DNA from: Mycobacterium sp.
GTDB lineage: Bacteria > Actinomycetota > Actinomycetes > Mycobacteriales > Mycobacteriaceae
Reading direction: 5' to 3'
DNA: 38,838 nt
Assembly (NCBI GenBank): GCA_025965975.1
Contig: JAOPVX010000383.1
Coordinates: 1-38,838, forward strand
Positions 11,890 through 36,887 of this stretch are shown in pieces. The notes below the pieces were generated by a model that worked only from the letters and a program-made list of their open reading frames with translations, had not been told where the DNA came from and ran no database searches. The position numbers and the translations under genes are program-made. Position 1 is the stretch's first letter; every line of letters begins with the position of its first letter.

Positions 11890-12459
11890 TCATGCGCGAT
11901 CAGCCTCCTCTCGAGCCGCCGGCCGCCAGTCGGCTTCGCGCTCGAACGTGGACAGCAGCAGCCGCTCCACCTCGGCGACCTGGCGATAAAACCGGTCCAC
12001 GGCGCGGTCGGAGTCGACGTCGATGACGTGTACGTAGATCATGCGGCGGACCTGGTCGATCTCCAACGCGATCGATCCAGGGATCAGGTTGACGATGTTG
12101 ACGGCCAGCGCCAGCACCAGATCCGACTTGATCGCCAGGTGGGCCCGCAGCACCGCGGACACCGGCGGCGGCCCTGGCTTGAGCGCCAGCCAGGCCACCT
12201 GAATCGACGACAACACCAGGTAGTACGCGACCGTGACGATCAGCCGCAGCAGCGACAGCGGGTGGACCCTGCCCTCGATCGGCACCACCGGTAACGGCAA
12301 CAGCAGGGTGATCAGCAATGCGATCGCCAGGCCGGACAGGATGTTGGCCGCAGAGACCGTGCCCCACAACAGCATCCACACCAGGATCAGCCAACACAGC
12401 ACCCAGGCCCGCAGTGCCACGCGCCTCATTTGCAGTTTGCTCTTCGCGCGAGCGCTCAT
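11890..12459 (-). CDS. mnhE: Mrp Na+/H+ antiporter subunit E
   Basis: A 189-residue subunit with two to three N-terminal helices (WVLCWLILVWMLLWG, NILSGLAIALLITLLLPLP) and a cytoplasmic domain with the family stretches SSIQVAWLALKPG and NIVNLIPGSIALEID. The first ten residues, MSARAKSKLQ, are encoded by the last of three perfect 32-bp tandem copies, each with its own ATG. The copies at 12491 and 12523 lead to stops after 11 codons, so only the ATG at 12459 yields full MnhE. Before the duplication mnhD and mnhE must have been joined by a simple ATGA overlap. Confidence 0.9.
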   Translation of the reverse strand: MSARAKSKLQMRRVALRAWVLCWLILVWMLLWGTVSAANILSGLAIALLITLLLPLPVVPIEGRVHPLSLLRLIVTVAYYLVLSSIQVAWLALKPGPPPVSAVLRAHLAIKSDLVLALAVNIVNLIPGSIALEIDQVRRMIYVHVIDVDSDRAVDRFYRQVAEVERLLLSTFEREADWRPAAREEADRA

Positions 12460-12524
12460 CTTTGCAGTTTGCTCTTCGCGCGAGCGCTCATCTTTGCAGT
12501 TTGCTCTTCGCGCGAGCGCTCATC
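12429..12524 (-). repeat. Three perfect 32-bp tandem repeats over the mnhD-mnhE junction
   Basis: Three identical 32-base units occupy 12429-12460, 12461-12492 and 12493-12524. On the minus strand each unit begins GATGAGCGCTCGCGCG and ends GCAAACTGCAAA. It contains the short palindromes GAGCGCTC and TCGCGCGA. Because 32 is not a multiple of three, each junction shifts frame and makes a TGA that overlaps the next ATG. Slippage at the similar sequences AATGAGGCGC and GATGAGCGC is a likely origin. Confidence 0.97.
12456..12523 (-). other. Two coupled 11-codon mini-ORFs ahead of mnhE
   Basis: The first (12523 to 12488) and second (12491 to 12456) repeat copies each encode MSARAKSKLQR and stop. 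The chain of overlaps is mnhD TGA/ATG, mini-ORF1 TGA/ATG, mini-ORF2 TGA/ATG, then mnhE, so three stop-restart steps follow one another. Whether ribosomes pass through all of them, and at what yield, cannot be judged from sequence. Confidence 0.6.
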
Positions 12525-14121
12525 GCTGTCGGCCTCCCACCACGGCAGTGATGTACTGGCCGCGGTCGAGCACCTCGTCGGCGGCCCGGCCGGCGTAGGC
12601 GAAGATCGGACCCGCCATCACGGTCAGCGTCAGGCCAACCGCGATGAGCGCGCCTGTCGGCACCACCATCCCGACCGGCATCCGCCCCACGTGGTCGCGG
12701 TCGACGAACTGGATGTCCTCCGGTTCGTCGAGGAGCACAGAAGGCGCCGCGCCGGAGAGATGGCCCTCCGGGGCTTCTTCCCGAGACCGCCAGAACGCCT
12801 TTGTCCATACCCTGGCAACCACATAGAGCGTCAACAGGCTGGTGAGGACGCCTCCGCCGACCAACGTCCATGCGAGTACCGACCCGTTCTGTGCGCCTGC
12901 CTGCAGCAGCGCCACCTTGCCGATAAATCCCGAAAATGGCGGAATGCCACCGAGATTGAGCGCCGGAATCACGAATACGAAGGCCAGCAACGGGCTGGCG
13001 GCGGCCAGCCCACCCAGCCGCTGCAGCGTCGACGCACCGGCCTGCCGTTCGATCAGGCCGACCACCAGGAACAGCGTGGTTTGCACCAGAATGTGGTGCG
13101 CCACATAGTAGATCGCGCTCGACATGCCAAGCTGGCTCGACAGCGCGATGCCGAACACCAGGTAGCCGATGTGGCTGACCAGCGTGAAGGACAGCAGCCG
13201 TTTGATGTCGCTCTGCGCGATCGCGCCAAGGATGCCGACCAGCATCGTCAGCAGCGCCGCGACCAGCAGCACCTGGTCAAGCCCGCCACCAGGGAAGAGC
13301 AGCGAATGCGCCCGGATGATTGCGTAGACACCGACTTTCGTCAGAATGCCTGCGAACACCGCGGTAACGGGTGCCGGGGCGGTGGGGTAGGAATCGGGCA
13401 GCCACGTCGACAGCGGGAAGACGGCCGCCTTGATGCCGAACGCGACGAGGAGCACCGCGAACAACGCGGTGCGGGTGCCCGCGCTCACGCCATCGAGACG
13501 CACGGCCAGCTCGGCCATGTTCAGTGTCCCGGTGGCGGCGTACACCAGGGCGATGCCGAGCAGGAACACCAGCGACGACACCATCGACACCATCACGTAG
13601 GAGATCCCTGCCCTGACGCGGTCTGTGCTGGCGCCGATCGTCAACAGGACGAAGCTGGCCGACAGCAGCACCTCGAACCCGACGAACAGGTTGAACAGGT
13701 CCCCGGCCAGGAACGCCGTGCACACGCCCGCTGACAGCACCAGGTAGGTCGGCAGGAAGATGGACACCGGCTGGCGGTCGTCCCCGTCGCGGATGCCCTG
13801 CCCGATGGCATAGAGCACCACCGCCAACAGCACGATCGACGACACCACCAGCATCAGCGCCGAAAGCCGATCTACGACCAGTGTGATGCCAAGTGGCCCC
13901 ATGCCAGGCACCGATTGGCCCCAGCCGCCGACGTGTAACGCAAGCGTGCCGTCGCGGTCGGTGAGATGGAGCAGGGCCGCACACACGACGGCGACCACCG
14001 ACAGCGCTGCCAGCGTGATGGCCCGCTGCAGCCGAGGCCTGCGGCCCGCGAACAACGTGAGCGCGGCACCGACCAACGGGATCAACACCGGCAGCGGCGT
14101 CAGCGAGGCAGAGAGCGTCAT
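12520..14121 (-). CDS. mnhD: Mrp Na+/H+ antiporter subunit D
   Basis: A 533-residue polytopic subunit related to the proton-pumping NuoL/M/N proteins of complex I. The conserved helix-5 glutamate is Glu150 (NLFVGFEVLLSASF) and the helix-7 lysine is Lys231 (FGIKAAVFPLSTWLPDSYP); relatives need both for ion exchange. QSDIKRLLSFTLVSHIGY and NLGGIPPFSGFIGK are further family blocks. Between about residues 430 and 475 there is a charged loop (RSREEAPEGHL to VDRDHVGR). The start overlaps mnhC and the stop overlaps the first repeat-borne ATG, both as ATGA. Confidence 0.95.
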   Translation of the reverse strand: MTLSASLTPLPVLIPLVGAALTLFAGRRPRLQRAITLAALSVVAVVCAALLHLTDRDGTLALHVGGWGQSVPGMGPLGITLVVDRLSALMLVVSSIVLLAVVLYAIGQGIRDGDDRQPVSIFLPTYLVLSAGVCTAFLAGDLFNLFVGFEVLLSASFVLLTIGASTDRVRAGISYVMVSMVSSLVFLLGIALVYAATGTLNMAELAVRLDGVSAGTRTALFAVLLVAFGIKAAVFPLSTWLPDSYPTAPAPVTAVFAGILTKVGVYAIIRAHSLLFPGGGLDQVLLVAALLTMLVGILGAIAQSDIKRLLSFTLVSHIGYLVFGIALSSQLGMSSAIYYVAHHILVQTTLFLVVGLIERQAGASTLQRLGGLAAASPLLAFVFVIPALNLGGIPPFSGFIGKVALLQAGAQNGSVLAWTLVGGGVLTSLLTLYVVARVWTKAFWRSREEAPEGHLSGAAPSVLLDEPEDIQFVDRDHVGRMPVGMVVPTGALIAVGLTLTVMAGPIFAYAGRAADEVLDRGQYITAVVGGRQR

Positions 14122-36785: not shown

Positions 36786-36887
36786 GGCTGTGGCCGCGCC
36801 ACACTCAGCCGACCGGGGACACCACCGAAGTCAGCTGGCTGTGGCCGCGCCACACTCAGCCGACCGGGGACACCACCGAAGTCAGCT
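36786..36887. repeat. 51-bp perfect tandem duplication at 3' end of second SDR gene
   Basis: The segment 36837-36887 is repeated exactly at 36786-36836. The right copy contains the last codons and the TGA of the SDR gene plus 19 bases beyond it. The left copy is an extra, non-coding duplicate. Each copy carries the small hairpin TGTGGC-CGC-GCCACA. The duplication lies between the SDR and VWA genes. Confidence 0.96.
36840..36854 (-). terminator. Hairpin directly after second SDR stop
   Basis: TGTGGC and GCCACA pair around three bases, one base beyond the SDR TGA. An identical hairpin sits at 36789-36803 in the duplicated copy. No T-run follows, so strength as a terminator is doubtful. Confidence 0.4.

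Follow-up and report, generated by a model that had tools for sequence, protein, structure and literature searches.

Three tandem copies of a short interspersed repeat at a mycobacterial mnhD/mnhE junction as a probable stop-start cassette

The described systems closest to the array reported here are the mycobacterial interspersed repetitive units (MIRU; Supply et al. 1997). The relevant section of a review portrays MIRU as apparently mobile, inserting at start codons with little effect on genes and carrying an internal ORF coupled at -4 nt (PMC12548453, citing Supply 1997). Excerpts from two other papers give their length as 40-100 bp (PMC2734929) and their range as M. leprae and the M. tuberculosis complex only (PMC4213456), although the review speaks of "many mycobacteria" (PMC12548453). 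Two systems from M. tuberculosis share parts of the arrangement. VNTR3239/ETR-F, which lies 5' of fpg1, is like our array a tandem repeat of variable copy number between two genes, and longer repeats go with higher mRNA across strains; its units are 55 and 79 bp, however, and the excerpt describes an mRNA effect and no stop-start phase (PMC2734929). The uPPE2-PPE2 pair has a short upstream ORF whose stop overlaps the next start, with handover at the AUGA overlap by termination-reinitiation in M. smegmatis reporters, but it is presented in the excerpt as a single riboswitch-linked uORF with no repeat (PMC11260477). Strict coupling is also reported for 13 of 14 overlapping gene pairs in Haloferax volcanii and E. 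coli, according to an excerpt from PMC6728339.

The window, by which we mean the whole stretch of DNA analyzed, is 38,838 nucleotides long and comes from Mycobacterium sp. (assembly GCA_025965975.1, contig JAOPVX010000383.1). The array lies in an Mrp-type antiporter operon with subunits A, C, D, E and F (five ORFs tested, NCBIfam cut-offs exceeded). An earlier note, made from the letters alone, had described three perfect 32-bp copies that each carry an ATG, the first two encoding an 11-residue peptide whose TGA overlaps the next ATG. Inspection of the sequence and TRF bore out this description. Three perfect 32-bp units occupy 12429..12524 on the minus strand (TRF: period 32, 3.0 copies, 100% matches, score 192), where the unit reads GATGAGCGCTCGCGCGAAGAGCAAACTGCAAA; the copy number of three is that of a draft assembly of 449 contigs. 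The features of the locus are as follows.

12520..14121, minus strand: mnhD, Na+/H+ antiporter subunit D (NF009308 above cut-off; Pfam)
12533..12538, minus strand: GGGAGG, a strong SD-like site 5' of copy 1 (pairing energy with the 16S tail)
12493..12524, minus strand: repeat copy 1, the first to be transcribed (sequence, TRF)
12461..12492, minus strand: repeat copy 2 (sequence, TRF)
12429..12460, minus strand: repeat copy 3, in frame with mnhE (sequence, TRF)
12488..12523, minus strand: minicistron 1, MSARAKSKLQR, overlapping both the stop of mnhD and the minicistron 2 start (sequence)
12456..12491, minus strand: minicistron 2, MSARAKSKLQR, overlapping the copy-3 ATG of the mnhE ORF (sequence)
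11890..12459, minus strand: mnhE ORF as opened by copy 3, its first 10 residues from the repeat (NF006521 above cut-off; Pfam)
12427..12429, minus strand: Met11 ATG, the start conserved in relatives without the repeat (junction comparison across relatives)

The mnhD TGA (12522-12520) overlaps the copy-1 ATG (12523-12521), and each of the two mini-ORFs (12523-12488 and 12491-12456) runs for 11 codons to a TGA that overlaps the next ATG. As the note had proposed, mnhD, the two mini-ORFs and the mnhE ORF are linked by three consecutive ATGA overlaps, and the stop/start overlap characteristic of translational coupling is present at all three window junctions. Because 32 = 2 mod 3, the mnhD stop, the closure of each mini-ORF and the mnhE frame are all preserved at any copy number. 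The further proposal that a change in copy number spares both frames was upheld on this ground, with relatives carrying 0 to 4 copies.

The reading of the array as a triplicated start of mnhE had to be given up: the array is one of the places where a dispersed repeat occurs, and mnhE has a start of its own beyond the array. The conserved mnhE start of relatives aligns to residue 11 of the window ORF (ATGAGG, Met11 at 12429-12427). In relatives without the repeat, mnhE mostly starts at the Met11 position, with a 4-nt overlap with mnhD in 55 of 100 such junctions. This alignment indicates that the ancestral mnhE start is Met11, just past the array, and that the triplicated ATG belongs to the repeat itself and not to mnhE. 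Since relatives without the repeat start at Met11, the first ten residues of the mnhE ORF, MSARAKSKLQ, are repeat-derived. At three junctions (L016, L035 and L049), the ancestral ATG position is occupied by TTG or CTG and a repeat ATG lies in frame upstream; because of this replacement, the repeat has probably been turned into the mnhE start there.

To place the array in its own genome (7.4 Mb, 449 contigs), we searched with the pattern ATGAGCGCTNGCGCGAAGAG, which gave 118 matches with up to 2 mismatches, split 65 and 53 between the strands, while the reversed control gave 0. The unit consists of a 20-base core, ATGAGCGCTYGCGCGAAGAG, usually preceded by CG, and a tail of about 12 bases, for a typical total of 32 bp; the tail varies by locus and finishes before the next ATGA. 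The full window unit including its tail had 3 matches in the genome (up to 3 mismatches), all at the window locus. On these matches, the core is shared between loci and the tail is local. A private triplication of the mnhE start was therefore ruled out, the core being dispersed in this and other genomes. An 18-base core searched within the window with up to 3 mismatches gave 6 matches versus 0.51 expected, a number reached by 0 of 100 shuffles; the exact matches were the 3 array copies only. Elsewhere in the window, a perfect 51-bp unit occurs twice at 36786-36887 (TRF score 204); on the minus strand it covers both the 3' end of a dehydrogenase-like ORF and the beginning of the ORF that follows.

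Among the matches listed, the own-genome copies formed 60 groups, a few of them counted twice. The set comprised 60 regions around the 100 listed of the 118 matches plus the window, with C76:31101 left out; two regions yielded no group under our filter, and two sites (L085/L086 and L087/L149) were probably counted twice because contigs break there. Array spacings were 24-33 bp except in one of the 60, and mostly 32. The two bases 5' of the first unit were CG in 44 of the 60 groups and in 70 of 76 sites from other species. In one of its frames the core has no stop and reads ERLREE. As to selection on the peptide, by eye there was no third-position excess of mismatches in the own-genome copies, which had been pre-filtered for up to 2 mismatches in at least one copy. 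At L085, L087, L149 and L159 (own contigs C5, C24, C50 and C169), contigs begin or end inside arrays of this repeat or no more than about 65 bases away from one; since contigs break there, copy numbers in draft genomes may be undercounted.

We then asked where the repeat sits relative to genes, using a codon score trained on 21 window ORFs to choose, over the 300 bases that precede each copy group, the frame that scored best as coding. The other-species set comprised 76 sites from 11 genomes, taken from the listed core matches and chosen blind to context. An upstream gene in the frame stopped by the unit's own TGA was found at 44 of these 76 sites, compared to 3.6% among 365 control ATGAs taken from other positions of these loci. 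In the window's own genome, the upstream gene was in the unit's stop frame at 32 of 57 sites, compared to 6.5% of 726 control ATGAs. The repeat is thus far commoner at ATGA gene ends than control ATGAs are. A downstream gene simultaneously in the frame expected of a 32-base unit was found at 36 of the 76 other-species sites and at 15 of the 60 own-genome groups. At the 44 other-species stop-frame sites, the mini-ORF ended on a 4-nt NTGA overlap in 32 and was exactly 11 codons long in 32; the own-genome values were 16/32 for the NTGA overlap and 9/32 for the 11 codons. Outside the stop frame (32 of the 76 other-species and 25 of the 57 own-genome sites), some copies lay in frame inside genes and some were intergenic or on the other strand. 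The excess at gene ends may be due to harmful insertions having been purged rather than to targeting.

Arrays of period 32 or 29 stood at stop junctions in 24 of 25 cases, compared to 7 of 12 for period 30 or 33 (Fisher p 0.009), periods that are unable to relay; the test covered arrays with a scorable upstream frame, after exclusion of 2 with other periods and 3 with fewer than 150 bases upstream. In the own genome and four other species, the repeat precedes apparently the same gene start, MI..VLVAN.. (L167, L253, L274, L304 and L313), possibly that of a biotin carboxylase. Because the same-looking gene start follows the repeat in five genomes, junctions other than mnhD/mnhE may also have been used repeatedly.

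The mnhD/mnhE junction itself was surveyed at 125 loci, representing 115 unique junctions, from an even draw of the genus and a named scan. The repeat was present at 14 of the 115, L243 (4 mismatches, a plain ATGA junction) having been excluded; in the even draw only, it was present at 11 of 74 including the window, with a degenerate copy in L005. Four copies were found in L029, three in the window, L046 and L209, two in L220 (the second degenerate) and one in the others; depending on the species, this junction holds 0 to 4 copies, or one that is fused to mnhE. The four copies in G079 come from a two-contig assembly. On a maximum-likelihood tree built quickly from 110 MnhD sequences (last 8 residues trimmed, L080-L084 excluded), presence of the repeat takes 14 changes to explain, and supported branches make at least 9 gains or losses unavoidable. 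Presence and absence of the repeat at mnhD/mnhE are scattered on the tree.

Seven pairs of filled and empty junctions were aligned, and such pairs fit gain or precise loss equally. Clean inserts were seen of 32 bp in L012/L013 and L065/L033 and of 29 bp in L030/L027; other inserts measured about 30 bp (L070/L016) and 90 bp, or three units (L067/L046). The L030/L024 insert was ambiguous and L214/L223 had no clean insert. Two related species with 95.9% identity over 3,450 bp had 2 copies (L353) and 3 copies (L355), and further best matches carried copies with other tails at the same junction; L353-L381 are best matches, biased to repeat-bearing junctions, and were left out of the frequencies. 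Copy number in the array differs between species.

Across Mycobacterium, the exact core was present in 237 of 396 genomes, and the reversed pattern had 0 occurrences among the rows listed. A family-wide draw found the exact core in 14 of 21 genomes of the window's genus and in none of the 230 genomes that represent 30 related genera. To separate slow from rapid growers, we used a 16S helix-18 stretch that we take to be typical of slow growers, which matched 56 of the 396 genomes; the split is approximate, because the motif is a presumed marker and 16S may be missing from some of the remaining 340 assemblies. The exact core occurred in 3 of these 56 genomes (G007, G116 and G131, one copy each) versus 234 of the remaining 340. 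When up to 3 mismatches were allowed, core matches in the 56 genomes came to 187 versus 155 for the reversed pattern, summed over genomes, so that the repeat is about at background there. Among the places listed, single copies with 0 or 1 mismatch were also seen in G023, G057, G075, G129 and G357; single copies in genomes with the slow-grower motif may be relics. A motif that we had presumed to be that of MIRU matched a different inverted-repeat (dyad) element, which is frequent in some slow growers. An inverted repeat around GCAGACGCAAAATCGC, with arms about 36 bp apart, was observed at L322, L324 and L326 and in G218, G091, G236, G074 and G105, occurring at tens of places in several slow-grower-motif genomes with few control matches.

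Searches beyond chromosomes were negative: IMG/VR viral contigs held 0 exact cores, and the 161-bp junction had no match to plasmids or phages at E <= 1. These plasmid and phage searches do not exclude carriage of lone cores, since a 20-base core is too short to score. The core letters and the peptides MSACAKR and MSARAKS had no match in open-licence PMC papers; we found no paper on this repeat there, which does not establish that it is undescribed. The earlier note had known of no description of such a relay, but the principle has a precedent, as coupling of an internal ORF at -4 nt is described for MIRU in the review section cited above (PMC12548453).

How the array might be translated was considered from pairing with the 16S tail, for which we assumed a sequence. 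The GGGAGG region before copy 1 pairs with this tail at -10.2 kcal/mol, compared to -2.1 for the regions before copies 2 and 3 and Met11; initiation is accordingly expected at copy 1. Over the whole family, SD-like pairing before first units was no stronger than in shuffles (-5.97 versus -5.98), and before the start that follows the last unit it was weaker (-6.07 versus -6.89). This gave no support to units that carry a strong SD of their own, and the strong site before copy 1 is a local matter, family pairing being no better than shuffles. A special RNA structure of the array was likewise unsupported (z 0.74, with 144 of 200 shuffles folding equally well or better), and Rfam over the window gave a sole match outside the array. 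A TPP riboswitch is present at 1479-1589 of the window on the minus strand, above the gathering score.

Taken together, we consider it probable that the array represents three tandem copies of a short interspersed mycobacterial repeat acting as a stop-start cassette. In the proposed mechanism, the unit's own TGA would close the upstream gene while an 11-codon minicistron opens at the same place; the minicistron would stop at the ATG with which the following unit or gene begins, and both neighbours would remain translatable by termination-reinitiation. At the window locus, ribosomes would either finish mnhD or load at the strong site before copy 1, and would then pass on at each ATGA until mnhE. 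Reinitiation below 100% would mean less MnhE per added copy, and since copies 2 and 3 and Met11 have weak SD-like sites only, each extra copy probably lowers MnhE somewhat. We infer that the unit persists as a portable stop-start cassette. Judged from sequence, its net role is most likely close to neutral, that of a hitch-hiker which affects expression mildly and is now and then captured as a new N-terminus.

The repeat invites comparison with MIRU, and the possibility that it is a true MIRU, as a short type of the repeat of M. leprae and the M. tuberculosis complex, was weighed directly. Both are dispersed, tandem and apparently mobile, and in both a short internal ORF overlaps its neighbours at start/stop junctions and is coupled at -4 nt to the gene that follows, on the review's description of MIRU (PMC12548453). 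In our data, such an ORF overlaps both neighbours at ATGA-type sites in the window and at 32 of the 44 other-species stop-frame sites, and the repeat is dispersed with filled and empty orthologous sites. The unit, however, is mostly 30-33 bp with a 20-base core, and falls outside the 40-100 bp that an excerpt gives for MIRU (PMC2734929). Its distribution also looks different: it is genus-wide and near background under the slow-grower motif, with an exact copy in 3/56 such genomes and 187 matches against 155 reversed, whereas the passage seen in PMC4213456 limits MIRU to M. leprae and the M. tuberculosis complex, a range with which the review differs (PMC12548453). Identity with MIRU is thus improbable; we call the repeat MIRU-like and not MIRU, a distinction drawn from published descriptions.

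The earlier note had suggested that copy number could adjust antiporter stoichiometry, and copy number may have been selected at mnhD/mnhE to set MnhE:MnhD, with each extra minicistron one reinitiation step. Frames that survive any copy number, related species with 0 to 4 copies and a sole strong SD-like site before copy 1 would fit such an adaptive dial, and repeat length can matter, as the excerpt on fpg1 mRNA in M. tuberculosis indicates (PMC2734929). The same repeat nevertheless lies beside many other genes, which lowers the likelihood of a function reserved for antiporter stoichiometry, and at mnhD/mnhE it is missing from most species (present at 11/74 in the even draw); we regard tuning of MnhE by copy number as plausible, but as unlikely to be the main role. 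Plain local slippage, in which the mnhE start was duplicated in place and is unrelated to other loci, draws on the three perfect copies and on a full unit with tail found only here in its own genome, and it would explain growth from one copy to three. It is already contradicted for the first copy, given the dispersed core, the other tails at the same junction in other species and the ancestral mnhE start past the array, and as a full account it is highly improbable. That the copy number of three is an assembly error could be argued from the 449-contig draft and the four contigs that begin or end in or beside arrays, but arrays stand at the same junction in few-contig genomes such as G079, with its four copies in two contigs, and we find this scarcely credible.

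Returning to the portable cassette, we tentatively propose, as a possibility that falls somewhat short of even, that a mobile repeat of about 32 nt spreads via CG-ATGA junctions in many mycobacteria, that its self-contained minicistron keeps both genes translatable at any copy number, and that it seeds reinitiation relays and new N-termini such as that of mnhE. If this is true, insertion would be nearly invisible to selection through the right length and phase for a ribosome relay. An idea proposed for MIRU could then be put to the test in hundreds of non-tuberculous genomes, where one and the same junction is empty in some and filled in others. The repeat could also provide VNTR-like markers, and it would pose the question of what moves a 32-nt repeat. 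Finally, it may account for short ORFs in mycobacterial annotation and for N-terminal extensions there (MSARAK.., MSACAK..).
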